NCBI GenBank assembly: GCA_003165335.1
Contig: PLTD01000082.1
Span: 1 to 36,829 of the forward strand
Length of the DNA: 36,829 nucleotides
DNA from: Rhodospirillales bacterium
GTDB lineage: Bacteria; Pseudomonadota; Alphaproteobacteria; BOG-932; Roseiterribacteraceae
Direction: 5' to 3'
Shown here one piece after another: positions 2,123-31,149 of the stretch (position 1 is the first letter of the stretch; each line of letters opens with the position of its first letter). The position numbers were made by a program, and so were the translations under genes. The notes under the pieces were generated by a model, which saw nothing but the letters and a program-made list of their open reading frames with translations, was not told the origin of the DNA and did not search any database.

Positions 2123-2142
2123 GGAAAATCCCTCCGGAAGCT

Positions 2143-2177
2143 ATAATGCATTATGAAACACTTGCACCCAGGGTCAA
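2143..2177 (-). promoter_or_regulatory. Promoter with TetR-type operator in front of the Rieske gene (site 1)
   Basis: The perfect palindrome ATAATGCATTAT occupies 2143-2154. On the minus strand it overlaps the -10 CATAAT (2150-2155), which stands 16 bp from a -35 TTGACC (2172-2177). Sixteen bases around the core (TATAATGCATTATGAA) recur in reverse orientation at site 2 (4839). Repression by occlusion of the -10 is the natural reading; binding by the local TetR is inferred. Confidence 0.75.
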
Positions 2178-2182
2178 GCCGG

Positions 2183-3052: not shown

Positions 3053-3077
3053 TATTTAGGTTCCTTTAGAGTGCAGC

Positions 3078-4769: not shown

Positions 4770-4838
4770 TGCTCTTTCCCCTTGAATCTTCGTCAACCGG
4801 GCCTCGCATTGGAGTTAGCATCCCGATTTTTAGTTTTC

Positions 4839-10130: not shown

Positions 10131-13100
10131 TTATTGGGTGCCCGGTTTCTGGAACAGCGGCCCGGCGTTACGAGGGTTTTTGGACAAGGGGAGAAGGAAA
10201 TCTCCAGGCTTTCCACGGTTATCGACAGTCCAGAGGAAGCCCTTACGATCGAGATACAGCTTTTGCATTTCGGGTAGATTGAAAGGCCTGGACCCTAGTC
10301 GCCCGAATATTGCGATCTGGTTTCCGGTCTCATCGACAGCTCGGTCTCGATCCAAACCTTTTGACAGCGCCAAAGCTGGGCTGGCTGTCTTACGCCAAGC
10401 TATCAATTCCGGCTTCGGATCGGGGCTAAAGCCGTAGAAATTTGGCTGAGAGGCCGGCGAGGTGAGTTGAATAACCTTCAAACCGGCCTCACCGTCCGCG
10501 ACATAGGCGTAAAGTGACGCGTTGGTCGTGGCGACGATTACGTCCTCAGCGTCATGAATGCGGCCGTCTGCGGTAAACATCTGATATAGCTTGGGTTGGC
10601 GAGGCTGTTCGACATCAACGATCGCTAGACCATCGGCTCCGTCAGCGACATAGGCGAAGGTTCTCGCGACATAAACACGATGGGCGTCTTTGAGCGGAAT
10701 TGTGGCGTTCTGAACGATTTCGGGATGGTCTGGGTGGGTGATGTCGACGATCCGCAATCCGGTTGCGTCGGTCACAAAGAGAAAACGGAACTGAACAGCT
10801 GTCGCTCGGGCCGTCGGAAGATCGATCACCGACAGAACCTTGGGTTTCATCGGGTCATTCATGTCGAGAACGACAATCCCCTTATCAGCGGCGATATAGA
10901 ATACCGAGCCGGCAATCGTAATATGCCGGGCGCCGTTCAATATGCCGCCCTCGTTCCAGGTGATGGCGCGTTTTAGGAAATTATTGCGCGGCTCGCCGTC
11001 GGTAAGAGTGTCGACGTCCACTGCTATCAGACCCTCTTTGGAGTCTGTGATGAATGCATAGTGGTAAATTGGATGGAACGGCTGTTCCTGGTTATCGATC
11101 CGCATCAGGTCGCCTACATTGCGGCCCGGCGCGATCGACTGGTTGGTGGGCAGGGCGACGCATGTCGCATCCGTCGTATCGACATGCGTATCATGCCCAA
11201 AGGGCGATGACGGGCCCGTGACAATCCTCTCCGAATAGCCTTTGTTTCCAATAGAAGCGATGTCATAGACTCGGAAACCGTCACTGCCCGCGGCTGTGAA
11301 AAGATACTCGCCGCGCATTTGGATACAGCGGGTAACGTCGCCCGAATGGTGATGCGCCTCCTGGAGCTCCTGTCCGTTGTCCTGATGTCTTTTCCACCAA
11401 TCGGGGTATGCGTAGCGATGCAAGTAGCTTCCGATCACGGCTTGCGGTTCGTCCCACTCCGTTACTTGTACCGCCTCTACGCCGCTTTTTTCACCCAGCC
11501 AGGCATTATAGCCGACAAAGTTCGGGAAATTGGTTCCCAGGAGCAACAGTTGCGCCATGATCGCATTATTGTCGTCCTTGGTGGAGACATGGCAATCCTC
11601 GCAGGTCTTCGTCTCCACTGTCCGTTCCGTATGCGGATAATGGGGCGCAAATGCCTGTGATGAGAAGCCGCTGGCCGCGATAGGCGGCTGCTGAATGTAG
11701 ATATGTTCTCGATTGATGTTGGTTGACGACAGTATCAAGGCTGACGATGAGCGCACCGGGGCAATGATGTTGCCCTTAACCGTCGAGTTCTTTCCAAGGA
11801 AGAACATGTCGTCGCGCGATACCTGAGGATTGTAAGTCGCATAATTCCGGCTTGTCCCACCCTCGAAGTGATGGCGTTCGGTTTTCCAATTCGCCTCGAT
11901 CGGCAGGTGGCAGCCGGAACAACTGGTTGTCCATGACGTATGGCAACTAATGCACATCATGTTCTTGTCTTGGTGCGCGCGATTTTCTGCAGCGATCCCT
12001 AGACCCCATTTGAGCGAGGGGTCGGCGGACATCAATTTCGCGCGGGCGGCCTTGGCGTTATATCCGGGGAAGGTCGGATCGACCGAGTTTTTGACCAGGC
12101 TGACTTTCCATTCGAGACCTGGGGTTACGGCCGATCTCTGGATCAGCGTGTTCCCGCGCCACTCGAAGCGCAGCGAACCGTCCTGATTGCGGATCGCAGC
12201 CAAGTCGTTGCCACCAGGGGGCGCAGCGGGACCGGAGGTTTTCAAAGTAGGATATTTGTCGACCGTGCCGTGACAGTCGATACATTGTATTTCGATCGCT
12301 GCCGACGCCTCGCCGTAGATGAAACCGTTGCTGTGCGCATCCTGGGCAAAATGGCAGTCCATGCATTGCATCCCTTTTTCCATATGGATGGAGGCGAGAT
12401 GCACTGCCTTGTGAAACTTATCGGGATCGTCCTGGCTGACCTTGTTGCCGGCAGCATCGAGCAGATTGCCCTTCCGGTCAGACTTGAAGATCGCGCGGAA
12501 ATTCCAGCCATGACCGTGATAGTCGGCGAACTGCGTATTCTTCAATGTGGGGTTTAGATCGGCAACCTTGGACAAAAATTCTTCGTCCGCCCATTTGCCG
12601 CGTGGCGCTGCGCCCTCGGGATTGCGATCGTTAACCGCCCGAATCTCTTCAGCTGTGGGATATTTCTGTTCTTTCGGCCACATGCTGGGCGCGTCGGATT
12701 CGTAGTCCCACATCGTGTAGCCCATAAAGGAATTCACGAAAATATTAGGCTGGTGCATATGGCAAATCATGCACTGGCTGGTGGGTATCGCCCGCGTAAA
12801 GACGTGACGCAGAGGATGGCCCGATTCACCGTGCGGAATTGTCGGATCGACTGACTGGCTGGTACCGTCATGCCCAAACACGGCATATGGCCCGGAATGG
12901 AGCGGATCTCTGTCGTTCGAATATATGACATGGCAGCCGGCGCAGCCGGAACTGCGGTAATCGCCCGGATTGTCGTTGGTCCCGAGGAACCACATGAACG
13001 GATCGTTCAGTCGAGTCTTCGTTATATTGATAACGGGCACCGCGATGCGGTTTCCGGTCCCTGCGTCACGGTTGGAGGCATGCAGTTCCGGTCGACCGGG

Positions 13101-13952
13101 CTCTTCGAGTTTTTGGATTTCGCCGCTGGAATTCGGATCGCCGATATCGGGAAACTGTGTTCCAGTGACACGGCCGCCACGTTCAAAAACCCTGAAGATA
13201 TCGCTCGGTTTGATAACTTCCCAAGGCGGCAGCGGCAGCAGGAACGGAAGAACACCGTGTTTCTTCATCTCATCGGTTGGTTCGACCGGATTGAAGACCT
13301 GCGAAGCCTTTCCGTTCTCATCATAGGATTCGCCGGTGAGGTAATGTTTGAAAGGCAAAATACCGTTGTTATAGGCAGCTCCCCCCCAAAGCATCGCTCC
13401 GGTCGACATGAGTGAGCGTTGGGTAACCTTGACTTCCTGTTCATGGCAGGCGCCACAAGCGTATTTCACAATCCGATAGTCGGATGGATTGAGAAAGCGG
13501 ATAAATTCCGGGCTTTCGTTATTCAGTAACGTGTAGCTTCGCTCTGGCTTGGCACTGACCGGCCAGTTCCAAGCTTCCGGATTGCGCGGCGCGACATGGG
13601 CAGCGTCCATTGCCGTCTTATAGGCGGGATCGGCGCTTCGCGTTACCGCTGGGGCGTGTCCCGCCAGACCCGCAGGCGAGGATGACTGACTGGGACCAAA
13701 GCTGATTGCCGCGTTCGCCGGCCGCACAATATTCGGATTGCCGCCGTGACAATCGGCACAACCGAGCATGATCGCCTTGTTTTCATGCATTGTCGGAGCG
13801 TCGGAGCTGGAATGGCAGCTAACGCAGCCGGTGCTCTTGGTCTGCATCTGCTCCGCGGACTGAAAACGGGGCGCAGACGTCTGCGGCCCGGCCCGTGACG
13901 GGGCCACCAAAGCGAGGCACAGAAGGCCGATGAAAAAGCCGAATCGTAGCAT
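10131..13952 (-). CDS. Exported decaheme c-type cytochrome fused to an LVIVD beta-propeller
   Basis: A 1273-residue protein with a signal peptide (MLRFGFFIGLLCLALVAPSRA) and ten CxxCH heme sites, the first Cys at residues 43, 65, 166, 337, 394, 530, 557, 667, 678 and 784. The region from about 870 to 1210 contains repeated units such as LFVTDATGLRIVDITHPDHPEIV and AYVADGADGLAIVDVEQPRQPKL. These are LVIVD repeats, which form a beta-propeller often found on surface proteins. The first ten-heme half is an electron wire; the propeller may dock it to a partner or substrate. It lies 5 bp after the outer-membrane barrel gene and is last in a seven-gene operon. That suggests a periplasmic or surface-exposed terminal carrier. 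It is not a clear MtrA, MtrC or OmcA relative from what I can see. Localisation outside the outer membrane is an inference. Confidence 0.9.
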   Translation of the reverse strand: MLRFGFFIGLLCLALVAPSRAGPQTSAPRFQSAEQMQTKSTGCVSCHSSSDAPTMHENKAIMLGCADCHGGNPNIVRPANAAISFGPSQSSSPAGLAGHAPAVTRSADPAYKTAMDAAHVAPRNPEAWNWPVSAKPERSYTLLNNESPEFIRFLNPSDYRIVKYACGACHEQEVKVTQRSLMSTGAMLWGGAAYNNGILPFKHYLTGESYDENGKASQVFNPVEPTDEMKKHGVLPFLLPLPPWEVIKPSDIFRVFERGGRVTGTQFPDIGDPNSSGEIQKLEEPGRPELHASNRDAGTGNRIAVPVINITKTRLNDPFMWFLGTNDNPGDYRSSGCAGCHVIYSNDRDPLHSGPYAVFGHDGTSQSVDPTIPHGESGHPLRHVFTRAIPTSQCMICHMHQPNIFVNSFMGYTMWDYESDAPSMWPKEQKYPTAEEIRAVNDRNPEGAAPRGKWADEEFLSKVADLNPTLKNTQFADYHGHGWNFRAIFKSDRKGNLLDAAGNKVSQDDPDKFHKAVHLASIHMEKGMQCMDCHFAQDAHSNGFIYGEASAAIEIQCIDCHGTVDKYPTLKTSGPAAPPGGNDLAAIRNQDGSLRFEWRGNTLIQRSAVTPGLEWKVSLVKNSVDPTFPGYNAKAARAKLMSADPSLKWGLGIAAENRAHQDKNMMCISCHTSWTTSCSGCHLPIEANWKTERHHFEGGTSRNYATYNPQVSRDDMFFLGKNSTVKGNIIAPVRSSSALILSSTNINREHIYIQQPPIAASGFSSQAFAPHYPHTERTVETKTCEDCHVSTKDDNNAIMAQLLLLGTNFPNFVGYNAWLGEKSGVEAVQVTEWDEPQAVIGSYLHRYAYPDWWKRHQDNGQELQEAHHHSGDVTRCIQMRGEYLFTAAGSDGFRVYDIASIGNKGYSERIVTGPSSPFGHDTHVDTTDATCVALPTNQSIAPGRNVGDLMRIDNQEQPFHPIYHYAFITDSKEGLIAVDVDTLTDGEPRNNFLKRAITWNEGGILNGARHITIAGSVFYIAADKGIVVLDMNDPMKPKVLSVIDLPTARATAVQFRFLFVTDATGLRIVDITHPDHPEIVQNATIPLKDAHRVYVARTFAYVADGADGLAIVDVEQPRQPKLYQMFTADGRIHDAEDVIVATTNASLYAYVADGEAGLKVIQLTSPASQPNFYGFSPDPKPELIAWRKTASPALALSKGLDRDRAVDETGNQIAIFGRLGSRPFNLPEMQKLYLDRKGFLWTVDNRGKPGDFLLPLSKNPRNAGPLFQKPGTQ

Positions 13953-13957
13953 CAGGC

Positions 13958-15691
13958 TCAGTACGCTAAGATGACGTCGAATACGACGGAATAGTACAGC
14001 TTGTCCGATGATTCGGAACTAAACAAATCTTTGAATCCTTGCCCGGGAACCAAGACGGCACCGGACATACGATAGATCACATTCTGCGTATCGAAAGGCC
14101 GCCAGTTCGCAGTCGTCGAAAGATCCCATCCTATGTCCTTATGGATGTTCCCCTGCTCGCGCAGCAGTTGTAAAATTTCGGTATTATTGAAGCTGAGATG
14201 GTTCGCATTATAGCTAATGCGCAACTCGGGCAACACATCGACGTCCGCACCAACGCCAAGCAACAGTACGCCGGGATTGATGAAATTCGACTGCCCTTCG
14301 TCCTTCGACGAGCGCAGCGCAGGCAGCACGCTGTTGGGCCCGGTCAGCGATACGCCACCGCCACCTATGAAGGGAATGCCCTCGCGAATCCAGTAGCTTG
14401 AATCTGCGCCCGCGAATTGTGGGTTCTCATTAATTGCATCGAACCCGCCTTCGGTTCCGCTACCGGGTTTGCCATCTCCACTGGCATAAAGGAACGAGCC
14501 GCGCAGCCGAATATAATCGAAATCGATCGAGGGCTCGAGCGCGATGAAGAAGGCTCGGATATCCGACGGCTTTCCGCTGATCTCGTTCAAGCTATCGTGG
14601 CCCAGAGCGTAGTAGAACGACTCGGTGAGGTTCACTCGGCCAAAGTGGCCATCGCCGTTAAGGCCCAGATATGTGACATTGTACTTATGCGGCTCTTCGA
14701 GCCCCAGTTCTGCCGGTCGTACAAGAAAACCGTTGGTGTCGTAGTGCTGTCCGGTGTCGTCGTTCCAATTCTCGACGACACTAAATTCAGTCGTAAAGCC
14801 GGTTACGGGCAAATCCTGCACGAACAGGTTTGCAAGAGCGATGTTATCGCGGCGCAACGGCTTGCTCAGATCGTTGAAGCCACTGTTGGTGTCTTTCTCG
14901 ATCCGGCGGAAATAGGCCAAGTTGTACTGAAAGCGATTATTGGCACGATCACCGAAGAAGCGAACGCCGAGCTGTTCGTCCTGAAAAAGGAAGCCTCTAA
15001 AATCAGCATTCATTGGCTGGATGCCGACCCGAACTGAGTCGAAATCGTACCGGTCAGAGACATCGCGCAGGTGATAATCGATGAAGGCTTCCTGGAAGCC
15101 GACAAAACCGGAGTTGCGCTCCCTGCCCTTGGCGGGATCGATATCGACGACACCGAGTTCTTCGACGCCGAGATGCGTGAAGCTGACCGCCGGTGTGACC
15201 GTGAACTCGAAATCCGGCGGACGAAATGTTGTATCGCCCTTGATGATCGAAAAGGTCGGCACCAGCGTCTGTGAAAAAAAACTCTGTCGAGGTTTGCCGA
15301 ACTGGTCGTTGCCGGTCTTGTCGTTGGCGACAACGGTATCGTTAGGCACCGGAACCGCGCGCGCCTCATAGAGAGTGTCCGTGACTGCGCTCAATTCGAC
15401 ATACCAATCGTCGAAGACGGGACGATCACCCTTGAGCGTACTTTGACGATAGGGATTGAGCGGATCGTCCGGTACGCCCAAGGCATCGACGATACGCGTG
15501 CGATCCGGAATCGGCACAGTTCGATAATCCAAGTCGCTCGACGGCGCAGGCAGGGCATCGGGATTCGTGGCCGGCGCCGGTGACTCGGTCGTTACGCCTG
15601 GTTGTTTGAATTCCTCTTGCCCAAAAGCATCGGGACCGGCGATGGCGATCGTGATCGTCGACAAGCCCGCCAGTAATATAGTGCGCCTCAT
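13958..15691 (-). CDS. Outer-membrane beta-barrel (porin-like) protein of the multiheme cytochrome operon
   Basis: A 577-residue exported protein with a signal peptide (MRRTILLAGLSTITIAIAGPDAFG), an acidic Pro-rich linker, then alternating strands typical of a barrel. It ends in an aromatic residue (YYSVVFDVILAY), as outer-membrane barrels do. No CxxCH motif is present in the mature protein. The ATG at 15691 overlaps the upstream TGA as ATGA, implying translational coupling to the GlcG-domain protein. Earlier in-frame starts would break the signal peptide. Placement between an exported GlcG protein and a decaheme cytochrome suggests a barrel that holds or passes a cytochrome through the outer membrane, as MtrB or Geobacter porin-cytochrome barrels do. 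I see no MtrB-type CxxC motif near the N-terminus, so direct homology is not claimed. Confidence 0.8.
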   Translation of the reverse strand: MRRTILLAGLSTITIAIAGPDAFGQEEFKQPGVTTESPAPATNPDALPAPSSDLDYRTVPIPDRTRIVDALGVPDDPLNPYRQSTLKGDRPVFDDWYVELSAVTDTLYEARAVPVPNDTVVANDKTGNDQFGKPRQSFFSQTLVPTFSIIKGDTTFRPPDFEFTVTPAVSFTHLGVEELGVVDIDPAKGRERNSGFVGFQEAFIDYHLRDVSDRYDFDSVRVGIQPMNADFRGFLFQDEQLGVRFFGDRANNRFQYNLAYFRRIEKDTNSGFNDLSKPLRRDNIALANLFVQDLPVTGFTTEFSVVENWNDDTGQHYDTNGFLVRPAELGLEEPHKYNVTYLGLNGDGHFGRVNLTESFYYALGHDSLNEISGKPSDIRAFFIALEPSIDFDYIRLRGSFLYASGDGKPGSGTEGGFDAINENPQFAGADSSYWIREGIPFIGGGGVSLTGPNSVLPALRSSKDEGQSNFINPGVLLLGVGADVDVLPELRISYNANHLSFNNTEILQLLREQGNIHKDIGWDLSTTANWRPFDTQNVIYRMSGAVLVPGQGFKDLFSSESSDKLYYSVVFDVILAY

Positions 15692-18489
15692 TTGCCGGCA
15701 CATAGATTTTGTGAACTGCTCGTGACATAGGGCGCATAGGGACAATTGACGTAGTGCGGCCCCGCGCCATTGGCGAACAGATTATCCGCGCGAATCGACG
15801 GCGGCGCTTCACCGATCCCCGTATTCAGTTCCTGACCGGCATTATAGATTCCCAGAAATGCCGTCATATCGTCCTGATCGACGCCGTCACCCGATATCCC
15901 GACTCCGCCGACGAGTACGCCATTGCGATAGACCGGGAATCCGCCAGGAAAAATCTGCAGTCCGTTCGCAATTACCGGCTTACCAGTCGCGCTGCCCGGC
16001 GGCGGCGGAAGATCCGTGCAATACCGATTCGTATCGGTGGATGATACTCCAGCGACGTAAAGCAGGTGTGCGGCGATATTGTGCAGCACAAGGTCGAGCT
16101 GCAGTCCATCCGAGAACGGCGTGTCGGTATTGGCTGGGAAGGAAAGCGGGCCGTTCACAGTCCCGTCGATGCCGTCGGGATATGTGGGACGTGCAATATT
16201 GCCAATGGCCCGGACACTCCACGCATAGGCGCTCGAGAAGATCGGACGACCGAAAAACGTTGTGGCCGCTAACGAAAATTTCGCAACATTGATGGTCCCC
16301 AGCCCAAGGTTGACCGAGTTCGCCGATTGCGATTGCAAAGCCTGGTCGCCGTTGGCGCTGGACATGAACACCGCCGTCCGGGCCTTCTGCAACGAAACGT
16401 CGATGCCGAACACTGGCGCATCGGGGATTGTCGCGATCGCAATCGGCGTGCCATTCGCGTCGACTACGGCGATTGTCACAGCGAGCACAGACCCTGGCGG
16501 GTTGCGGATCTGCGCCCGTGTCTGGATGCCGCTCGCATAGGCTGCCTTCACCAGTCCGAGCGCTTCTTGCTGAGACAAAGTGCCGTTGGCGCCTGCAATT
16601 GCCGGATATCGGACTTGGTTGTTGCCGTCGACCAGGAGATAGGGCGCCACCTGCGTGCTGATCGTGCCCGAGAAATCCTGGACAATGCCGGACGCACTGG
16701 AACCGTAAGCACTCCCTGCGCGTAAGCCGCTGGCGGCGGCGTAATAGCCAGTTACGTCGACAAGGCCTCCTGTCCCCGTCGGCATCGAGGCGTAAGCCGG
16801 TGCCGACGCCGGACTGGTCACGAAGTCCGTGTTGGTAGCGTCGGAGTAGCGCAACGTCAGCCCGCCCGCGGTGATTGTCGTGGCGACAATCGATGCCGGT
16901 GCGTCAAGGCCAACCGTGCCGGCAAGCGCAAGTATCTCATCTGAGGAGTTATCGTTGTTGTAAATATCCTCGTCGACGCGATAGGGACCGGCTGCCTTGA
17001 CGCCAATGCCGCCGACGAGCTCGCCGTTTTTGTAGAGCGGGAAGCCGCCGGGGTCGCCCGCAAGCCCCAAGGGCGAGCGATGGGGTCCTCGCGTCACCGT
17101 GCTCGCGTCGGAGATCGGGTTGTAGGCCACCATAAGGTCTGAACAGGGCAGGGAACTGAATTGGGTACCATATAGCGGGCCGGAAGGTGCTCCCAGCGTG
17201 CCTGGATTGAAGTGCTCCTGTATGATTTGGCTTGCGGTTCGGGTCGAAAATGCATTGCCGTGTGACGATGAGAGGTATGCGCCGGTCACCGCCTTAGCAA
17301 TTGCCTCGAGCGTGGTCGGGACAAGTTTCTGATTGAGTGTGCTCGGGATACGGCTGTCACTCCCGACGCCGCTCAGCCCATCGACAAGCGGGGTCGCGTT
17401 CGCTCCGTTGGGGTTGGTTTCAACCGGCAAAGCAGTCGGTGCGCCAACCATTTGGTACACGGCCAGAACTGCTCCCACGCGGTCCACCACTGCGATCGTT
17501 GCCGGAGTATTACGCGCGTTGGCTTCCTGCACGACCCGACTGATAACCTGCCCTACATCAGTCGGCGTCAGTGCCGTGTTGACCAAGCTGGGACCGGGGA
17601 CCAGAACAGGTCCAAGTGCAACGGGAGTAGGACTGTCGGTTTGCACGGCAACACTGGTCGATCCCCGGACGGCACCGCTGGTATCTGTGAAACGGACAAA
17701 GACCCTGCTGGTCGCTGGGGCGAATGGTATCGCACCCGAACCGGCCGCGAAGACTGCGAAAGTCGGCGTCGCGCCGCTGTTGATCGTCGACTGAACCGTC
17801 GCGCTGGGCGAAGCGAAGCACTGTCCGGTACTCGGGTCGGTCTGGCAAATTGTCAGCGCCACCGGGATGCCCGCCGAACCAGTGTCGGCCGATACGGTCA
17901 ATGCACCGGTTGCGCCTAAATTCACCGATGCGATCGCCAATGCCCCGGTTCCGTTATTACCGGGTATGTGGATGACCCCGTCATTGGTCTCAGTTGCGAC
18001 CAATGCCACCACATCAGGGATGGGCGTCGTCGAAGCGGAAAACAAAAGGTCGTTTACGCCGGTCGTAACTGCTGCTGCGACTGCATTGGTGCAGGCAAAG
18101 GAAAATGCAATCGATGTCGGCGCGATCGGACTGTTCGGCGTAACCGAGATCACAAAACTTTGCGCAGCACCTGCAGCTATATCGACCGGCGTGTTTACCG
18201 ATCCCGCTACGGCGTTCGTGCTGGGGTTCGTGGTCTGGTAGGTGAAGGTGGCCGGCACTGTCGTTGCCGGAGCAATGTAACATCCTGTGCCCGCAATCGA
18301 GCCCGAATTTATAATTGTAGCGAAAGCTGTTGCGGCTTCTCCGACCTGAACGGAACGGCTGCTGGGCAATACCGCAGCGACGAGTGAAGCGGTGGATACT
18401 TGCGCCTGTGCTGTCGTGGCGACCCCAATTCCGAGCAGCCCGATCAGTATTGCTCTGACCAACCGATACGAACTTCCCCCCATGATCAT
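15688..18489 (-). CDS. Large exported protein with two GlcG/HbpS-like domains
   Basis: A 933-residue protein with a signal peptide (SYRLVRAILIGLLGIGVATTAQA). Residues 30-300 form a Ser/Thr/Ala-rich, beta-sandwich-like region. Two GlcG/HbpS-type domains follow, at about 308-508 and 638-883. Each has the family's TIAVVD...G strand and a PGGFP(L/V)Y(K/R)NGxLVGG(I/V)G motif. HbpS and relatives bind heme or sense redox state, and GlcG is otherwise poorly understood. Next to three multiheme cytochromes, a heme-binding or scaffold role is reasonable but unproven. The frame is open to 18615, but that would overlap the upstream gene; ATG 18489 or 18483 gives a clean signal peptide, and neither has a strong ribosome site. 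Its TGA overlaps the barrel start. Confidence 0.8.
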   Translation of the reverse strand: MIMGGSSYRLVRAILIGLLGIGVATTAQAQVSTASLVAAVLPSSRSVQVGEAATAFATIINSGSIAGTGCYIAPATTVPATFTYQTTNPSTNAVAGSVNTPVDIAAGAAQSFVISVTPNSPIAPTSIAFSFACTNAVAAAVTTGVNDLLFSASTTPIPDVVALVATETNDGVIHIPGNNGTGALAIASVNLGATGALTVSADTGSAGIPVALTICQTDPSTGQCFASPSATVQSTINSGATPTFAVFAAGSGAIPFAPATSRVFVRFTDTSGAVRGSTSVAVQTDSPTPVALGPVLVPGPSLVNTALTPTDVGQVISRVVQEANARNTPATIAVVDRVGAVLAVYQMVGAPTALPVETNPNGANATPLVDGLSGVGSDSRIPSTLNQKLVPTTLEAIAKAVTGAYLSSSHGNAFSTRTASQIIQEHFNPGTLGAPSGPLYGTQFSSLPCSDLMVAYNPISDASTVTRGPHRSPLGLAGDPGGFPLYKNGELVGGIGVKAAGPYRVDEDIYNNDNSSDEILALAGTVGLDAPASIVATTITAGGLTLRYSDATNTDFVTSPASAPAYASMPTGTGGLVDVTGYYAAASGLRAGSAYGSSASGIVQDFSGTISTQVAPYLLVDGNNQVRYPAIAGANGTLSQQEALGLVKAAYASGIQTRAQIRNPPGSVLAVTIAVVDANGTPIAIATIPDAPVFGIDVSLQKARTAVFMSSANGDQALQSQSANSVNLGLGTINVAKFSLAATTFFGRPIFSSAYAWSVRAIGNIARPTYPDGIDGTVNGPLSFPANTDTPFSDGLQLDLVLHNIAAHLLYVAGVSSTDTNRYCTDLPPPPGSATGKPVIANGLQIFPGGFPVYRNGVLVGGVGISGDGVDQDDMTAFLGIYNAGQELNTGIGEAPPSIRADNLFANGAGPHYVNCPYAPYVTSSSQNLCAGK

Positions 18490-18539
18490 TCGTGACCACA
18501 AGGTACGCGAACGCAAACTCTTGATTGTCTTTGGGGGGA

Positions 18540-20264
18540 CTATTTTGTGGCCTCCGTCGCTTCGGTGGCCCGAGTTTCGACAATCGGATGCTCGGGATTG
18601 TGGAACACGTGGCAAGATACGCAGCGCGATGCGATGCGCTGTGGTGCACCAGATTCTCCTGCGTGGCAGCCCCTGCAGGTTTCTATACCGGGAATGAGTG
18701 CTGTAACGCCGCCGTCACTCGTTTCGGCCGCGTGGCACCCTTGGCAAGTCATTGTCGCGTGCTTGTCATGCCTAAACTGAGCTTTGGGCAAAAAGCGATC
18801 GGGAACGTAAACTGGCAATATCTTCCAGGCGGAAGCGGGTTCACCCGCGGCGGGCGCCTGCGTGACGTGACATTCGCCGCAAGCACTTCGCGCTATGGCT
18901 GACATCATCGCATTTGCAGTCTGGGCAGAAACCATTTCCGCACCTGTCGGAGGCGGCGGCAATGGCGCCCCTGGTTTTGCGAATATATCGCTGTTCGGCG
19001 CAGGAAAGGTCTCATTGGCCAAAGCTGCTTCGGAATAATAGCCCCTAAGCCGATTGGCTACGTCTTCGGGGTGCCCGTGGGGCAATCTCCACTCCGGGTG
19101 CTTCGGTTCGAATTGAAGCTGATGGCATTCCGCGCAAGCCTTGTCGTAAGTGACCGGCTTGAACACCATTCCCCCTGGCGTCTCTTCGTGACAGGTCGCA
19201 CAGGTAGATCCCACTTTAGCACCCGCTGCCTTCACCTTCTCGAGCTTCAGATGTGTCATATGCGTGAACTTAAGATGGCTATTGTCCACGGCATTCTTAT
19301 CGTCGAGCGGGAAGCGCGCCACCGTGTGCAGCGCGGCATCTTGAACTAGCGATACAGAAAATTCCGGGTGATCGGAGCCGAAATCCCGCACATCATGCAA
19401 CTTTGTATTGGGTGCGTAGCTTTTAGTGTCCTGATGGCACGAGACGCAGTCAGCCTGATCGTTCCTGGTCGCTAGAGTCATGCCCTTATGTTCATGGTGA
19501 CAGGATTCGCAACGCTGCTTATTTAGATCTGCATCGGGCGACATATGCGGGTCTGCATGCTGCCCGATAGTCTGATGGCAGGACAGGCAAGAACTGGACC
19601 GAACGGGGACAAAAGCGCTTTCGTGGCAGCTTGCGCAATTAGTACCAAACGCCTTATGCGCTCCCGAGATTTCGCCGACATTCCAAAGCGCAGCAGAATG
19701 AAAAATACTCTCATGCACGCTAAGTGCCGCTTGGGTTCGACCGGCCTTTGTGGTCCAACTGGCAGCCGTGTGGATCGGGCCGAACACTATCGGCACTATA
19801 AAGAAAAGCGCAAATACGACCACAGAAAGCGCGAAGGCGAACAGACGGATGTTCGGCAAAGTAACGTCGAAGCGGCTCATATATGACTTGGCCTGAGCCG
19901 CCTCGTCGAACGCCCCTTCCTCAGCTGCCGTAACGGTTACAACATGGTCCGCTGGAGTCGATTCGTCAGGCGCTACCTGTGTAAATATAAATGGACCGAT
20001 TCTTATTGAATCGCCGACTGCCAGGAGTGAGCTCGGAACCTCCGAGGTACCCTTTTTCAGGGTAGCGCCCGGGAGAGCTTCGACCCAGATATTTGCTCCG
20101 TCCTCACGTAAGACAGCGTGATGGTAGCGCAATCCGTCGCGCTTCATCCGCAGCCCGCAATCCGGTGCGCGGCCGACGATGATCGACGGCTCTTCGATTA
20201 CACGATCTTGTCGTGGGTCAATCGAAGCGCCGACGCGCGGTATGAAGCGAAAGAGCGTCGACAT
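18540..20264 (-). CDS. FHA domain-membrane anchor-decaheme cytochrome c
   Basis: A 574-residue fusion. Residues 26-93 form an FHA fold with the GR motif (R32) and H49, but the usual Ser before the His is Arg (R46), so classic phosphothreonine binding is doubtful. One transmembrane helix (about 139-162) follows. The remaining 400 residues contain ten CxxCH sites, beginning at C210, with spacing typical of the cytochrome c3/c7 superfamily. Topology would put the FHA domain in the cytoplasm and the hemes in the periplasm. The gene starts 3 bp after the b-type cytochrome stop. It likely takes electrons from that membrane cytochrome and passes them across the periplasm to the outer-membrane part of the system. 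The FHA domain could tie activity to cytoplasmic signalling or to partner assembly. Confidence 0.88.
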   Translation of the reverse strand: MSTLFRFIPRVGASIDPRQDRVIEEPSIIVGRAPDCGLRMKRDGLRYHHAVLREDGANIWVEALPGATLKKGTSEVPSSLLAVGDSIRIGPFIFTQVAPDESTPADHVVTVTAAEEGAFDEAAQAKSYMSRFDVTLPNIRLFAFALSVVVFALFFIVPIVFGPIHTAASWTTKAGRTQAALSVHESIFHSAALWNVGEISGAHKAFGTNCASCHESAFVPVRSSSCLSCHQTIGQHADPHMSPDADLNKQRCESCHHEHKGMTLATRNDQADCVSCHQDTKSYAPNTKLHDVRDFGSDHPEFSVSLVQDAALHTVARFPLDDKNAVDNSHLKFTHMTHLKLEKVKAAGAKVGSTCATCHEETPGGMVFKPVTYDKACAECHQLQFEPKHPEWRLPHGHPEDVANRLRGYYSEAALANETFPAPNSDIFAKPGAPLPPPPTGAEMVSAQTANAMMSAIARSACGECHVTQAPAAGEPASAWKILPVYVPDRFLPKAQFRHDKHATMTCQGCHAAETSDGGVTALIPGIETCRGCHAGESGAPQRIASRCVSCHVFHNPEHPIVETRATEATEATK

Positions 20265-20267
20265 ATA

Positions 20268-21134
20268 TTACCGGTAGTAGAAAACCGCGAAGACGTGGAT
20301 CCCAAGAGCGATCACCAAAGCAATCGTTAGCGGGACGTGGACTGCGCGCCACAGCAGTAGTTGGGCACGATAGCGCCAATCCCGGCGCATCTTCACCACT
20401 ACCGTCGCGCGCTTCGTCAAGTTTTGCACTAAGGGCAGAACCTCAGCGGGCTGAGCATTACCGACGCCACCAACCTGATCTCTCAGTTTGGCAATCGCCG
20501 CGCCGGTCGCACCGGCCAATAGATTTGGTCCTCGCCCGAGCAGTCCCTCCCGAAAAGTGAACTTCCCGCCGTAATCTTCAGTGGCCTGAACAACTAGGGC
20601 TGCGACTTCGTCATCGAAGGTTAGGGCCAAATCCCGGCATTGCTGATCAAGAGATGCCAGTTCGGCCGCCATCGTCTTCAACGTCGACCCTGCACGGTTG
20701 GTCGTCATCATCGCGGGATAGCGGACGAATGCATAAGCGCCGAATACGCCGCTCAAAATCACGATCGCCATCAGGACGAAGGCAAGTGTGTGGACGTTCC
20801 AATGAAATCGGAAACCAGTATGGAGGGTCGCGATAACGATCAGCGCCAGCCCTAAATAAACATGGGCCGACATCCATCCCTCGAGTGGACCCTGCCCGCC
20901 GTAGCGGCGACGGCGAATGCCGAACCAGGCCAGCCAGCCGATCAGACCCAGCCCTATCGTGCCGTACGCATATCCCAACCACGATCCACCATTAGGAGGA
21001 CCGCTTGGATGGTCAATCCAATATCCAACAATCGCCAAAGCCGAAAGCGCAAGCGCAACCTTCCCATAATAGCCGCCGCGCCAAACCAAGAAGGAGCGAT
21101 GGATCGAGACCGGTTCGTTGGCAGATGACGCCAC
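20268..21134 (-). CDS. Diheme b-type membrane cytochrome
   Basis: A 288-residue integral membrane protein with about five hydrophobic helices (24-40, 55-73, 89-107, 115-137, 262-285) and a soluble loop of about 120 residues before the last one. Two His pairs with identical 14-residue spacing, H91/H105 and H266/H280, sit in helices. This is the hallmark of stacked bis-His b hemes spanning a membrane. It lies 2 bp downstream of the FAD/4Fe-4S gene and 3 bp upstream of the FHA-decaheme gene. The obvious job is therefore to carry electrons from the cytoplasmic Fe-S protein through the inner membrane to the periplasmic decaheme, perhaps with a quinol site. It is not recognisably NrfD or NapC. Confidence 0.82.
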   Translation of the reverse strand: MASSANEPVSIHRSFLVWRGGYYGKVALALSALAIVGYWIDHPSGPPNGGSWLGYAYGTIGLGLIGWLAWFGIRRRRYGGQGPLEGWMSAHVYLGLALIVIATLHTGFRFHWNVHTLAFVLMAIVILSGVFGAYAFVRYPAMMTTNRAGSTLKTMAAELASLDQQCRDLALTFDDEVAALVVQATEDYGGKFTFREGLLGRGPNLLAGATGAAIAKLRDQVGGVGNAQPAEVLPLVQNLTKRATVVVKMRRDWRYRAQLLLWRAVHVPLTIALVIALGIHVFAVFYYR

Positions 21135-21136
21135 GG

Positions 21137-23566
21137 TTATTGTCCCCGCCCGTCACGAAGCCAGGACATGTATGTCTCCGGCGCCACCCGAATTGCCGCT
21201 CCGGTCGGACAGGCGGCGACGCAGGAAGGTGACCCACCGGTATCCTTGCATAGGTCGCACTTCACCGCCTTCATCGCGTGCGGCGCATTATGGTCGTGCG
21301 GTTTGGGTGCCGGTGTGGGCAACCCGACGCTATCGAGCAACCACGTCAGCCAGTTTTGCGGCTCTTTCTGACCCGACGTTGGATCGACCATATTAATGAC
21401 GCCGTAGGGGCAATTATTCGCGCAATTGCTGCATCCGATGCAGGTCTGCTGGTTAATAAAGACTTCGCCCGTCGGCGCGCGCGTGATTGCGTCGACAGGA
21501 CAATCGCTCATGCAGTGCGGATTTTCACAATGGCGGCATGCTACGGGGAGCAGAACCGACATTGCGCGCTGGCCGGCATCGCGATTGACCCTGCTGATGC
21601 CGTCATGAGTCGAAGCACAAGCCGATTCGCAGTTGCCGCAACGCGTGCAGAGGCCCTCGTCTATAATGAAAGCGTTCGTCGCCTCGCCTACGCCCTGCTT
21701 CATCAGGAAGGACGTCAGAGCCGTCTCATCAACCTTATTCTGAGTCTGGCCGGCGCGAGCAAGCGCGCTGCGCACCGTTTGATCGAGCTGGGACTGTACT
21801 GCGTTTTCGAATATGGCCCGCAATTCTGGCATGCGGTCCATGCTCGCACGCACGACAGTTGCATCGACACGAACCGCTTCGCAAGCCACGGTCGCGCGGA
21901 TTGTTGCGGCCCGAGTAGCGCCGTCTTCCAGCAGTCCCCGCTCGCCAAACAAGCTGCCCGCCGCGATGTAATTTAGTGCAACTTCGCGTCCGTTTTCGAC
22001 TCGCGTTACAGTCGCAGATCCGGTGCGCAGAAAATATAGCGCGTCGACTGGATCGCCCTCGGCACAGATCGTCTCAAACGCCTTGTAGCGCTTCAATTCC
22101 GCCCCGGCGATCACATCTTCGATGTCGCTGATCGGCCGATCGCGAGCCAATCCCGTATGGACGATCCTTCGCATCGCAACGCGATCCAATTCAGCCTTGA
22201 TGGCCTTAACGGATGCCTGAAGGCGCCGCATCGTCCGCCGCGGAATCTCGACCATAACCGCCGGCTCACCCGCAATCACCGTCGCGCTGCGACGGCGCCC
22301 CGAGATCAGCCCCAACTCACCAAAAAACTCTGCTGTCCCGATCCGCACCGCCATATCCGGGCGCGCCTCGTTGATCAGCACATGAGCAGACCCTTCGGCA
22401 ATATTCCAAAGCGAACTGGTGTAGTCACCGCGCTTAAAAACCGTATCCCCTTTAGCAAAGCGAAATATTGAGCTTTCCAGCATGGCTTCACGCAACTGAA
22501 GCATGGTTAGGCCTGCCAAAACCGGAACATGTTCGCGCAGGTAAGTCAGCACGTCATTCACTGCGGCACCCGGGAAGGCCGGATCAAACCGCTGGCGCAG
22601 CAGATCCTCGTCCGCAGGAGGAATTGGATCGCCGGCCATTCTGCGGATGATTTCGTGGCCTTGGTTCACCGCTTGCTTAATCAGGGTGAAGCCCGCAAGT
22701 GCGCCGATGATGTAGAGCCCCGGAACGTTACACTCGTAAGTCTCATTGAGTTCAGGGACTGCAGCGGGATCGTCGCTCGGAAACTTTATTCCCGCTTCTT
22801 CGAGAAATTTACGAGGCGGTATGGCACCGAGGCGAGCGATAATCCGGTCCACCGGAACGATCGACTGACCCTCGGCTGTATCCAGAATCAGCGCTTCGTC
22901 ATCAATGCGCGCCGGCGCAGAATTCGGATAGGCTCGAATTTGTCCCGAACGAATGGCCTTTTCGATCGCGGCAACATTGCCCGGCTTGGCGCGCGAGAAA
23001 TCCGGCTGGCGGTTAACGATGCTGACTTCGTTATGCGACGCCAAGGCAATTGCGTTTTCAATACCAGCATCGCCGGCACCGATAATGGCAATGCGCTCGT
23101 TCTGATAGGCGTCCGGGTCGTCGAGTTGGTATTGAACCCACTCCCGATCGGCGCCGGGTACCGGAACCTTACGCAGATTGCCCTGTAACCCGATCGCGAG
23201 GATTACTTCGTCGGCCGTGATGATCTCGTCACCCGGCAGGGTCAACTGGAAACTGCCGCGCTGGCCTGACATCTTTCTAACTTCGGCATTCAGCCGGATG
23301 TGCGCACCGGACTTTTCCGCAGCAATATTCCAATTTTCGAGGATGCCCTCGCGAAACCCCTCTTCGAACGGCATGCTGCCCTGAAGCGGCAGGCGCATCG
23401 GATGCGCCATAACCTTTTTGCCCTTCTGGTACTTATAAATCGTGTCGGACAGATGATTCGTCCGCTCCAACAGGACATGCGAAAGCCCCTGCTCGGCCGC
23501 AGTAACTGCCGCCGACAGGCCGCCAGGACCCGACCCAATAATCGCGACCTGATAATGCTCGGTCAT
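21137..23566 (-). CDS. FAD/NAD(P) oxidoreductase fused to two cNMP-binding domains and a four-cluster ferredoxin
   Basis: An 809-residue cytoplasmic protein. Residues 1-320 are a two-dinucleotide-fold flavoprotein (GSGPGG at 11-16 for FAD, GAGDAG at 163-168 for NAD(P)H), resembling YpdA/TrxR but without the CxxC disulfide. Two Crp-like cyclic-nucleotide domains follow at about 360-460 and 480-575. Both have complete phosphate-binding cassettes (FFGELGLISGRRRSATV and LFGERGLLEDGATRAATI). The C-terminus has sixteen Cys in four sets (640/643/646/650, 677/680/685/689, 709/712/715/719, 770/773/782/786), as in HybA/DmsB-type 4x[4Fe-4S] proteins. The likely role is NAD(P)H oxidation feeding the adjacent b cytochrome, with allosteric control by a nucleotide. 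ATG 23566 has GAGAGG upstream. The domain content is certain; the donor and ligand are inferred. Confidence 0.92.
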   Translation of the reverse strand: MTEHYQVAIIGSGPGGLSAAVTAAEQGLSHVLLERTNHLSDTIYKYQKGKKVMAHPMRLPLQGSMPFEEGFREGILENWNIAAEKSGAHIRLNAEVRKMSGQRGSFQLTLPGDEIITADEVILAIGLQGNLRKVPVPGADREWVQYQLDDPDAYQNERIAIIGAGDAGIENAIALASHNEVSIVNRQPDFSRAKPGNVAAIEKAIRSGQIRAYPNSAPARIDDEALILDTAEGQSIVPVDRIIARLGAIPPRKFLEEAGIKFPSDDPAAVPELNETYECNVPGLYIIGALAGFTLIKQAVNQGHEIIRRMAGDPIPPADEDLLRQRFDPAFPGAAVNDVLTYLREHVPVLAGLTMLQLREAMLESSIFRFAKGDTVFKRGDYTSSLWNIAEGSAHVLINEARPDMAVRIGTAEFFGELGLISGRRRSATVIAGEPAVMVEIPRRTMRRLQASVKAIKAELDRVAMRRIVHTGLARDRPISDIEDVIAGAELKRYKAFETICAEGDPVDALYFLRTGSATVTRVENGREVALNYIAAGSLFGERGLLEDGATRAATIRATVACEAVRVDATVVRASMDRMPELRAIFENAVQSQLDQTVRSALARAGQTQNKVDETALTSFLMKQGVGEATNAFIIDEGLCTRCGNCESACASTHDGISRVNRDAGQRAMSVLLPVACRHCENPHCMSDCPVDAITRAPTGEVFINQQTCIGCSNCANNCPYGVINMVDPTSGQKEPQNWLTWLLDSVGLPTPAPKPHDHNAPHAMKAVKCDLCKDTGGSPSCVAACPTGAAIRVAPETYMSWLRDGRGQ

Positions 23567-23593
23567 TGTGCGACCTCTCGCATCAAGCCGCCC

Positions 23594-24937
23594 TTACCAT
23601 GAAGGCATCGCCTGGGTGACCGACTTGGCCGCCGCAGCGAATTTCACCGGGTCGTAATTGTCTTCCTTCTCGGTCGCCCCGTAACACTGATTGAGCCCGG
23701 CCTTAAGCGCCGCGTATGCCGAAGCATCGAGCGCGCCATCAGTGTTGAGCGTGTATATGATCGAAGCGAACGCCATTGTTGCCTGTTCGGCAGCGGCGTA
23801 ATCGCTCGTATCGCCATTCGTGCTGGACTTGGCGACAGCCAGCAGCATGTCGCGCATATCTGCCTTGGTGAAATCATGGGCCGCCAGCACATCGCCCAAC
23901 TTCTGAGCATTTGCCGCCAATCTGCGCGCAATTTCGCCCGGGTTACCTTCACCGGCGCTCAAGGCAAGATGCAATTCATGAACGTCGGCATCGAGTGACT
24001 TGCCCAGATCAGGCGCCACTTTCGCCGCAATCGCCCGCAGCATAATCGCATTTGCATCGTTGAAGTGTGGGATACCCGGGCCCAAACCCGTAGATGCGCG
24101 CTTTTGCCAGCGCAGATTACTCATCGGGTGATGACAGGCCTGGCAGTCGAAGAAGACCAGTTCAGGAAAAACTCCATTTCCCTGGTGCTTATCGTTCGCA
24201 ATGCCCGTGGCCAATCGCTCCAAAGCCAAAGCCTGGCCGACCGCCCAGAATTGGACACCCTTCGCGACGGCCTTATGCTGACGGTAAACATCGTCTATCA
24301 CATAGTGTGCAGGCTCGATCTGAGTAAATGTCTGAAGTTCGAATGGCATACGCGGGTGCCCGGCACCCATGATTTTATGGGTAATTACATGCGTGTCATC
24401 GCCTACATGGCAACTGACACACAACTTGGCGCGCTCAACCGGCCTGTCGGTCGGGTACAGTCCGTCATTATTGACCAATTCCGCATGCGTAATATGGCCA
24501 TCGACATGGGGCCCAAGATAACGCTGACCCCCGCCGTGGCAAGCTTCGCAACCGACCCCGTCTGAAATCTTGAATTGGACGCCACGCGCCTCAGCGGGGA
24601 CATTATCGGCGTGACAGTCCAGACAAACTTTCGCCTCAGTCGCGGGGCCAATACCAAGATTGGCGGCGATTCGTTTGCCCAAGTCGCCCTCGAGCACAGT
24701 GTAGGCCTTGGCGTGCTTGTCATGCACCTGCCAAGTCAGATACTCGTTTTGAAGAACTCCGTTTTTCTTGGTCGTCGACGCCGCGCCGTGGCACGGGCCG
24801 CCAGCGCAAGTCGCCACACCGAGATGTATATCCGTAACCGGCGGAGCAGGCATGGTCTGCGCTTGCCCGACCCCTGCGAGACCCAACAATAAGGTCACGA
24901 GTATCATTAGTGAATGCCGGCCACGCGGACGACTCAT
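23594..24937 (-). CDS. c554-like multiheme cytochrome c, exported
   Basis: A 447-residue periplasmic protein with a signal peptide (HSLMILVTLLLGLAGVGQAQ). It has four CxxCH sites (C105, C130, C173, C265) plus an N-terminal Cx4CH site (CAGGPCH, C44-H50), giving five probable hemes. The order and the CHGA/ACHGGG contexts resemble the cytochrome c554 family. The last 170 residues are helical and Ala-rich without heme sites. The ORF extends to 25012, but ATG 24937, preceded by GGGAAGA, gives a proper signal peptide. It is the first gene of the seven-gene redox operon, with 27 bp to the flavoprotein gene. It may be a soluble shuttle or a small-molecule oxidoreductase; five hemes alone do not decide this. 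Confidence 0.88.
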   Translation of the reverse strand: MSRPRGRHSLMILVTLLLGLAGVGQAQTMPAPPVTDIHLGVATCAGGPCHGAASTTKKNGVLQNEYLTWQVHDKHAKAYTVLEGDLGKRIAANLGIGPATEAKVCLDCHADNVPAEARGVQFKISDGVGCEACHGGGQRYLGPHVDGHITHAELVNNDGLYPTDRPVERAKLCVSCHVGDDTHVITHKIMGAGHPRMPFELQTFTQIEPAHYVIDDVYRQHKAVAKGVQFWAVGQALALERLATGIANDKHQGNGVFPELVFFDCQACHHPMSNLRWQKRASTGLGPGIPHFNDANAIMLRAIAAKVAPDLGKSLDADVHELHLALSAGEGNPGEIARRLAANAQKLGDVLAAHDFTKADMRDMLLAVAKSSTNGDTSDYAAAEQATMAFASIIYTLNTDGALDASAYAALKAGLNQCYGATEKEDNYDPVKFAAAAKSVTQAMPSW

Positions 24938-29024: not shown

Positions 29025-30185
29025 ATGCCGGACACGGTAATGGCCGAACGATGTGCCGTCCGAGAAATCGAGAGCAGCCCAATTCCGCAGCGCTTTGCAC
29101 GCGGCTGGCACTGCCTGGGGCCGGCTTCGATGTTCAAGGACCGGAAGCCTCATGCAATAGAGGCGTTCGGCACTAAGCTGGTCGTCTTCCAGGGCGAGGA
29201 CGGCAAGCTCAACGTGCTGAACGCGTTCTGCCTCCATATGGGCGGAGACCTTTCCGACGGCAGGATCGTCGGCAACACCGTCGCCTGCCCGTTCCACGAC
29301 TGGCGCTGGGCCGGAGACGGGCAATGCGTTTCGGTGCCCTATTCCAAGAAGATCCCCCAAGGCGCGCGCACCCGGTCCTGGGTCGTGCGCGAGGTCAACA
29401 AGCACCTGATCATCTGGAACGATCCGGAAGGCAATCCGCCGGATATCGAGGTTCCCGTGATCACCGGCGCCTATAGCGACGACTGGAGTTCCGACTGGGC
29501 ATGGTCCGAGGCCATCGTCGAGAACCACCCGCGAGAACTGATCGACAACCTCGCCGACATGCCGCACTTCTTCTATGTCCACGGCGAGCGGAAGGGAGCG
29601 CAACCGGGCTATTTCAAATGCGTGTTCGATAAGCATGTCGCGACTCAATACATGGAGTGCGGCTCGGAAGAGGCGACAGCGACCTATGACCGCGACGGGC
29701 ATTACGAGGGCGACCCGGAGAAGATCGATGGGTTCTTGAGGTCGGAATCCACTTGGAATGGCCCCGCTTATTCGGTCGACTATCTTTGGTGGCGCCTGCC
29801 CGAAGTCGGCATGCTGTATTCGGTTCTGTTCCTGTCCATCCTGCCGATCACGCCGGGCAAGTTCCGCCTGGGTGTCGGTGTACTGACGCAGAAGAAGGCG
29901 GGCTTGAGCGAGGAACAGAACCACGTCCGGCACATGGCAAACTTCGAGGGACTGAAGGCCGCTACTTTCCAGGACATTCGGATCTGGCAGCGCAAAGCTC
30001 GGATCGACAACCCGCTGGTAACGGAAAGCGACGGCCCCGTTTATCGGCTGCGCACCTGGTACGACCAATTCTATGTCGACCGAGCAGATATCCGCCCGCA
30101 GTCAGTGGCCCATTTCGAGAAGTTCGTCGACACAGGATACGCCAACGAGGTTTGGGCCAAGGAAATCGCCGAATCTCAGACCTGA
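29025..30185 (+). CDS. kshA: KshA-like 3-ketosteroid 9-alpha-hydroxylase, oxygenase component
   Basis: A 386-residue Rieske oxygenase closely following the KshA pattern: FARGWHCLG, AFGTKLVVFQGEDGKLNVL, CLHMGGDLSDG, VACPFHDWRWAGDG, then VPYSKKIPQGARTRSW. Rieske ligands are C69-x-H71 and C88-x-x-H91; the catalytic iron site is D178-x-x-H181-x4-H186 in NLADMPHFFYVH. KshA hydroxylates 3-ketosteroids at C9, which together with delta-1-dehydrogenation opens ring B. ATG 29025 has CGGGGAAAG upstream. It heads an operon with LLM, KstD-like and nitroreductase-fold genes, so steroid-type chemistry fits well. The reductase KshB is not in the window. Sphingomonads carry many KshA paralogues, so the exact substrate is open. 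Confidence 0.85.
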   Translation: MPDTVMAERCAVREIESSPIPQRFARGWHCLGPASMFKDRKPHAIEAFGTKLVVFQGEDGKLNVLNAFCLHMGGDLSDGRIVGNTVACPFHDWRWAGDGQCVSVPYSKKIPQGARTRSWVVREVNKHLIIWNDPEGNPPDIEVPVITGAYSDDWSSDWAWSEAIVENHPRELIDNLADMPHFFYVHGERKGAQPGYFKCVFDKHVATQYMECGSEEATATYDRDGHYEGDPEKIDGFLRSESTWNGPAYSVDYLWWRLPEVGMLYSVLFLSILPITPGKFRLGVGVLTQKKAGLSEEQNHVRHMANFEGLKAATFQDIRIWQRKARIDNPLVTESDGPVYRLRTWYDQFYVDRADIRPQSVAHFEKFVDTGYANEVWAKEIAESQT

Positions 30186-30207
30186 ACTTTCCCCAAGGAC
30201 AAGAAGA

Positions 30208-31149
30208 ATGAACAGAACCGGCGCTAAGCCGAAGGTCATGCTCGCCATGAGCGAGTTGTTCACGCTGCTACCCGCTGAGGAGGAGCATCGCCATCTCGAA
30301 TTCGCCCGGATCGCTGAGGCAGAGGGTATCGAAGGCCTGTTCGTCAGCGAGCATGTGGTAATGGGGCCAAGCGCCGGCGCGCTCGGCCGGCCTGACAATC
30401 CGCGCCAGTTTGTGATGCCGGGCATGCAGGACCCGGCTACGCCGTGGCCCAGCCCTCTAATCAAACTCGCGGCCATGGCGGGCGCGACCTCCACCATCCG
30501 CGTCATCTCGGCAGCGATCATTGCCCCGCTGCGCCATCCAATTCTGCTCGCCAAGGACCTGGCGACGCTGGACCTGATCTCGAACGGTCGCTTCACCGTC
30601 ATGCCGACGGTCAGTTGGCATACCGAGGAATATCAGTCGATGCAGATCGACTTCGCCTCGCGCGGCCGGCGATTGGACGAGCATCTGGCGATCTGGAAGA
30701 CGCTGTGGGAGGACACGCCGGCCGCCTATAACGGTGAATTCTATCAGTTCGCCAACACCTTCTTCGCGCCCAAACCCGACCGGAGCAGGCTTAAAATATG
30801 GTTCGGAGGCATGGAACTGAGGCCCAGCCTGCTGAAGCGGATCACATCCTACGCCGACGGCCTGTTCATGGGCTTCCCCTTGAGCGAGGACAACAAGGCG
30901 CTGCTCGACCTCACGATGGCCGCCGCCGGACGCAGCGCCGACGAACTCGAGATCGCCGGCTGGCTGGTACCAAGCTTCCCGGATGGCGGCCCCGCCGACT
31001 TCGACGCCACACTGGACGCGCAGCTCCACACGCTGGTGTCTCAGGGCTGCGACTTGATCGCGATCAAGCCGTCCAACTTCATCGACGATCCGAACGGGAT
31101 GGCAGCCTTCTGCCGGCATGTCCTCAGGCGCATCGACGGGATGTTTTGA
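30208..31149 (+). CDS. LLM-class flavin/F420-dependent oxidoreductase
   Basis: A 313-residue luciferase-like TIM-barrel protein of the TIGR03619-like F420 branch. Landmarks are AEAEGIEGLFVSEHVVM, RVISAAIIAPLRHPILLAKDLATLDLISNGRF, and FFAPKPDRSRLKIWFGGME. Such enzymes use FMN or coenzyme F420 for hydride transfer or monooxygenation. ATG 30208 follows AAGGACAAGAAG, 22 bp after the kshA stop; an upstream in-frame start at 30073 would lie inside kshA. Its TGA shares one base with the next ATG (TGATG), so translation is coupled to the KstD-like gene. Whether it really uses F420 depends on whether the host makes that cofactor. Confidence 0.87.
   Translation: MNRTGAKPKVMLAMSELFTLLPAEEEHRHLEFARIAEAEGIEGLFVSEHVVMGPSAGALGRPDNPRQFVMPGMQDPATPWPSPLIKLAAMAGATSTIRVISAAIIAPLRHPILLAKDLATLDLISNGRFTVMPTVSWHTEEYQSMQIDFASRGRRLDEHLAIWKTLWEDTPAAYNGEFYQFANTFFAPKPDRSRLKIWFGGMELRPSLLKRITSYADGLFMGFPLSEDNKALLDLTMAAAGRSADELEIAGWLVPSFPDGGPADFDATLDAQLHTLVSQGCDLIAIKPSNFIDDPNGMAAFCRHVLRRIDGMF

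Follow-up and report, generated by a model that had tools for sequence, protein, structure and literature searches.

A conserved seven-gene set for a putative trans-envelope electron pathway with an exchangeable outer module

Seven neighbouring genes in the genome of a Rhodospirillales bacterium raise the question of whether their products carry electrons from the cytoplasm to the outer membrane or beyond, and whether such a conduit belongs to an undescribed class, as the first-pass annotation had proposed. The genes lie at 10131-24937 on the minus strand of the window (the whole stretch of DNA analysed, 36,829 nucleotides; contig C156 of a 5.19 Mb draft genome). All seven are intact and co-directional; each reads without interruption from a start codon to one stop at its end. 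The intergenic gaps along the set are 27, 2, 3, 50, -4 and 5 bp, which bears out the proposed uninterrupted minus-strand operon (gaps of at most 50 bp and one 4-base overlap). In the order of transcription, the genes are as follows.

23594..24937, minus strand: c554-like pentaheme cytochrome with a signal peptide (PF13435; four CXXCH and one CX4CH)
21137..23566, minus strand: cytoplasmic FAD/NAD(P)H oxidoreductase with two cNMP-binding domains and four [4Fe-4S] sites (Pyr_redox, cNMP_binding twice, Fer4_11); inner module
20268..21134, minus strand: inner-membrane diheme cytochrome b (two WX3HX13H motifs and SGXXG); inner module
18540..20264, minus strand: FHA-like cytoplasmic domain, one TM segment and a periplasmic decaheme part (ten CXXCH); inner module
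15688..18489, minus strand: exported protein with two GlcG/HbpS-like domains and conserved Cys (PF03928, E 2.8e-22; N-terminal hydrophobic signal); outer module
13958..15691, minus strand: outer-membrane beta-barrel with 18 predicted strands and an AlgE-like fold (AlphaFold model); outer module
10131..13952, minus strand: decaheme cytochrome with a C-terminal LVIVD beta-propeller and a signal peptide (PF08309; ten CXXCH); outer module

The set consists of two modules, the inner one of reductase, cytochrome b and FHA-like decaheme and the outer one of GlcG-like protein, barrel and decaheme-propeller, together with a mobile pentaheme. The heme-c sites total 25, the number first claimed: ten CXXCH each in the LVIVD and FHA proteins, four in the pentaheme, and the single CX4CH of the latter. 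A further CXXCH in the longer ORF at 13958-15745 lies upstream of the real start of the barrel gene (15691, a 4-base overlap with the preceding gene); it is outside the protein.

Our reading, to which we assign a probability of roughly 0.58, is that the products form an electron chain through the envelope, made up of an inner module and an outer one that can be exchanged, and that this chain passes electrons of NAD(P)H to an acceptor on the outer membrane or outside it. NAD(P)H would reduce the FAD of the cytoplasmic reductase, and the electrons would then pass its four Fe-S clusters. The two b hemes would carry them across the inner membrane, where the membrane-anchored FHA-decaheme would take them from cytochrome b, and the periplasmic pentaheme would relay electrons to the decaheme-propeller. 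The partner barrel would hold the decaheme-propeller at the outer membrane for delivery to the acceptor. We infer the order of transfer, the barrel-decaheme contact, a control of the reductase by cyclic nucleotides and the outward direction, the last from the reductase, the membrane polarity and thermodynamic reasoning, with outward flow from NAD(P)H as the likeliest direction.

A scan of one genome per species returned 155 relatives of the decaheme-propeller, 80 of which (57-88% identical) were kept. The same genes occur in nearly the same order in these 80 other loci, from alpha-, beta- and gammaproteobacteria. Barrel and decaheme are adjacent in 76 loci, GlcG-like protein and barrel in 65, FHA-decaheme and GlcG-like protein in 56, cytochrome b and FHA-decaheme in 54, and reductase and cytochrome b in 46. 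All seven genes are present in 34 of the 80 loci, and many of the others are cut by contig ends. The homologues are thus not scattered, and the proposed seven-gene unit holds; the proposed coupling of a cytoplasmic NAD(P)H-type reductase to a transmembrane diheme cytochrome b and multihemes is supported too. Across genomes that are not independent of one another, the decaheme-propeller was found in 28 of 385 in a first class sample, all 28 of which also have the FHA-decaheme (Fisher 1e-35), and 12 of 13 genomes with the decaheme-propeller in a second class have it as well (Fisher 1e-18). A chance neighbourhood of unrelated redox genes is refuted by the order kept in 80 loci and by the co-occurrence across two classes, and its probability is negligible. 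A putative conserved trans-envelope electron pathway is well supported. The carriers of the set are proteobacteria, mostly aerobic and, judged by name, mostly heterotrophic. Among those that the records name are Dokdonella immobilis, Tahibacter, Solimonas fluminis, Pseudoteredinibacter isoporae, Hyphomonas and Sphingobium (on plasmids); some names of metagenome-assembled genomes (Bordetella, Klebsiella, Asaia) look mislabelled. One genome (G848) has two copies of the system (L140 and L141), and a record titled Acidobacteria (L031) holds a system 73% identical to that of the window, through either horizontal transfer or mis-binning.

The reductase gene, which adjoins that of cytochrome b, matches PF13247 (E 3.8e-13), and 16 invariant Cys of its product, assigned to four [4Fe-4S] clusters, agree with the four Fe-S sites first counted. 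Despite the similarity to YpdA and thioredoxin reductase, an identity as a disulfide reductase was rejected, since the 16 Cys would serve the four clusters and no conserved CXXC disulfide was found; no TM segment was found in this protein either. In cytochrome b, H91/H105 and H266/H280 are invariant. WX3HX13H occurs twice in 76 of the 79 relatives and SGXXG in 76 of 79 (SGVFG in the window), and the two WX3HX13H motifs were matched by none of 20,000 shuffles, upholding the assignment of two b hemes. In the FHA-decaheme, exactly ten His are invariant besides those of the ten CXXCH motifs (29 sequences, 24-50% identity), and a PDB sequence search with this protein gave no match. Its claimed FHA domain stands only as FHA-like: the Pfam FHA model gives no score on it, and conservation does not extend to the Ser of the phospho-Thr pocket, which leaves phospho-Thr control through this domain a weak candidate. 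In the pentaheme, whose gene is mobile in position among relatives, the fifth heme site is a CX4CH (CAGGPCH) invariant in 29 relatives. The heme His, five in number, are invariant as well, together with five others (29 sequences), and all its hemes can be bis-His by this count. The full sets of invariant His suggest that the FHA-decaheme and the pentaheme act as electron carriers rather than as catalytic sites.

The two modules can be separated. In Sphingobium and Hyphomonas-type genomes, the reductase, cytochrome b and FHA-decaheme genes are on one strand and the GlcG-like, barrel and decaheme genes on the opposite strand. In five loci (L131, L132, L133, L135 and L137), a pentaheme of 590-640 aa and a barrel of 530-540 aa stand beside the same inner module in place of the outer module, and profile comparison showed the alternative barrel to be unrelated to that of the window (hhalign probability 0.5%). 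Two other loci with the FHA-decaheme only (L129 and L138) are merely cut by a contig end. In a quick tree of the inner module, which has some long branches, the five alternative loci fall among the others, and by this tree the outer module must have changed at least three times. By these comparisons, exchange affects the outer module as a whole, and each version pairs a multiheme with a barrel. The claimed pairing of a barrel with a multiheme is borne out.

The decaheme-propeller keeps its ten heme His, and thirteen others are conserved at 98-100% (56 sequences). Its gene is 3.8 kb long, within the 3.7-4.3 kb range of its relatives. An AlphaFold model has a propeller of high confidence, with generic propellers as the only fold matches, and a heme part of low confidence; a PDB sequence search with this protein gave no match. 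Distant decaheme relatives with 10-12 hemes and no LVIVD propeller are found in other contexts (L122 9044-11425 and L123 8539-10827). The barrel has no Pfam match, and searches of PHROGs and of PDB sequences with it were empty. Its AlphaFold model (pLDDT 74, 48 sequences) has 18 strands, and a fold search placed it closest to the AlgE and Occ channels (AlgE Z 27.6, rmsd 3.0 over 359 residues), with no MtrB-like chain among the fold matches listed for this pLDDT-74 model. By standard geometry, the lumen would measure ~22-25 Å for 18 strands, compared with ~36-40 Å for 26 strands. The 18-strand barrel is thus probably too narrow for a decaheme plug of the MtrA type, as in MtrAB, whereas docking of the decaheme at either mouth of the modelled barrel is possible.

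These features of the barrel bear on a different reading, in which the system is a periplasmic reductase: the barrel would let a substrate, either small or polymeric, pass inwards or outwards, the GlcG-like protein would bind the substrate or a cofactor, and the cytochromes would reduce the substrate in the periplasm, the electrons remaining inside the outer membrane. The closest folds of the 18-stranded barrel are indeed substrate channels, no cytochrome shows a surface anchor (neither a lipobox nor another evident anchor was seen on any component), and the Geobacter ext cluster, whose ExtM represents the named cytochrome family nearest to the decaheme, includes a porin that has been interpreted as possibly a channel for selenite. 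However, the barrel is invariably accompanied by a multiheme, even where unrelated proteins replace both, and neither the pentaheme nor the FHA-decaheme shows a ligand-free heme. We consider the periplasmic reductase unlikely, and a putative crossing of the outer membrane by electrons likely, although the latter is weakened by an 18-stranded, AlgE-like barrel and the lack of an evident surface anchor.

Known systems were compared with the set by their features. The defining parts of PCC4 are a porin, a group of cytochromes bearing 4, 5 and 10 heme sites, and an inner-membrane protein in which WX3HX13H occurs twice together with SGXXG, the signature of the PCC3/PCC4 inner-membrane protein; subgroup II of PCC4 includes a pfam13247 Fe-S gene (He et al. 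2017, PMC5566968). The window likewise has a protein with two WX3HX13H and SGXXG, an adjoining PF13247 Fe-S gene and cytochromes with 4 and 10 CXXCH, and the five loci with the alternative outer half carry the 4/5/10-heme and porin set. In the window, however, the 5-heme cytochrome and its porin are absent; their place is taken by the GlcG-like protein, the decaheme-propeller and a barrel unrelated to that porin. Thus, the inner half matches PCC4 by sequence features and the whole window is not filed as PCC4; the main text of He et al. mentions neither LVIVD nor FHA (PMC5566968). He et al. derived PCC4 from Fe(II) oxidisers and proposed inward flow for it, with a model in which it donates to the quinone pool (PMC5566968). 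The likeness to PCC4 favours such inward flow here, in which Fe(II), Mn(II) or another donor outside the cell would be oxidised at the outer membrane and its electrons would enter the inner membrane. In the window, however, the reductase ends in FAD/NAD(P) and Fe-S, and reduction of NAD(P)+ by Fe(II) needs an energy input that no part provides. With hosts that are by name mostly heterotrophs, and a June 2026 metagenome survey of the Sterkfontein ghost-rock cave favouring export for most cluster-bearing genomes in the part of its account used here (PMC13264449), inward flow appears distinctly improbable.

The same part of the survey describes 11 group 1 clusters in which a large decaheme adjoins a porin of ~20 strands; a ferredoxin-NADP reductase is nearby in 7 of the 11, and the clusters are regarded as probably electron-exporting (PMC13264449). 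In the window, a Pyr_redox FAD/NAD(P) reductase is likewise in the operon. The decaheme of the window, with 10 hemes, adjoins a barrel of 18 strands (pLDDT-74 model), and its gene is 3.8 kb long, compared with 4-5 kb in group 1; that part of the account gives no propeller, FHA, GlcG or swap. Compared by these descriptions, group 1 is probably of the same kind as the window. The proposal of an undescribed conduit class is therefore not sustained: the inner half matches PCC4 features, and the 2026 paper, as far as considered here, lists clusters of such a description (PMC13264449). Judged by its sequence features, the gene set is a variant of already described systems and not a new class.

MtrCAB, MtoAB and PioAB share with the window a decaheme, an outer-membrane barrel and an inner-membrane cytochrome, but the barrel here has 18 predicted strands, and the inner part begins with an NAD(P)H-type reductase rather than with quinol via CymA. 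The MtrB/PioB barrel family (PF11854) has no match in the window barrel or anywhere in the genome, and the MtrA/DmsE-family decaheme model (TIGR03508) gave 29 and 16 bits against a cut-off of 192. The Geobacter extHIJKLMNOPQS cluster also combines a porin, multihemes and a cytochrome b, and the similarity of the decaheme to ExtM (NF040943) is weak (66 bits against a cut-off of 800); ext has a rhodanese, a Rieske protein and a selenoprotein, but no cNMP reductase or propeller. In the open-access literature, we found neither a link of LVIVD or FHA to multiheme cytochromes nor a functional experiment on any member.

The surroundings of the set differ from genome to genome. In the window, the flanks resemble steroid or bile-acid catabolism, with all matches below equivalog cut-offs:

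992-4796 and 29025-32729: steroid-24-oyl-CoA synthetase-like ligase, 3-ketosteroid delta-1-dehydrogenase-like protein and Rieske oxygenases

A tie to nearby catabolic genes had been suggested, and a link to steroid or aromatic catabolism was rejected on the variation of the flanks between genomes. Control of the reductase by cyclic nucleotides is plausible given its two cNMP domains, and the CHASE2-cyclase and CpdA-like phosphoesterase that flank the set in Sphingobium accord with it. A similar phosphoesterase is found in a further relative (L116), and PP2C phosphatase and FHA protein genes follow the operon in several gammaproteobacterial loci. In 46 upstream regions, motifs for FNR, CRP, Fur, NarL, RpoN and others showed no clear excess; the small excess of Fur and OxyR-like motifs there may be caused by near-identical strains. 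On the conjugative megaplasmid pMSHV of Sphingobium herbicidovorans (L111, 1-12617), a two-partner secretion pair (2092 aa exoprotein) and CHAT and CHASE2-cyclase genes adjoin the electron-pathway genes, and another Sphingobium plasmid (L113) has a similar layout.

The host of the window is likely aerobic, since its genome has heme-copper oxidases (three COX1 matches). By its proposed path, the inner half resembles NADPH oxidase and ferric reductase (FRD) in leading from NADPH through FAD to two b hemes across the membrane, with HX13H pairs, but it uses separate proteins, an Fe-S relay and c hemes and has no Pfam FRD match. The system might even be a cAMP-gated, NADPH-driven trans-envelope electron exporter working under oxic conditions, a bacterial counterpart of these enzymes in which plug-in outer modules would determine whether the electrons go to oxygen, to Fe(III) or to an organic oxidant outside the cell; we hold this extension as speculative and rather doubtful. 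If the outward electron chain that we prefer is correct, many heterotrophic proteobacteria not known for metal respiration, among them Dokdonella, Tahibacter, Solimonas, Sphingobium, Pseudoteredinibacter and marine Rhodospirillaceae, would possess machinery dedicated to moving reducing power out of the cytoplasm towards the cell surface, its inner half constant and its outer half interchangeable. The idea could be tested directly in Sphingobium herbicidovorans and Dokdonella immobilis, two of the hosts that can be cultivated, and such machinery would bear on the makers of extracellular superoxide, on the reducers of surface iron in oxic waters and on the evolution of conduits by module exchange.
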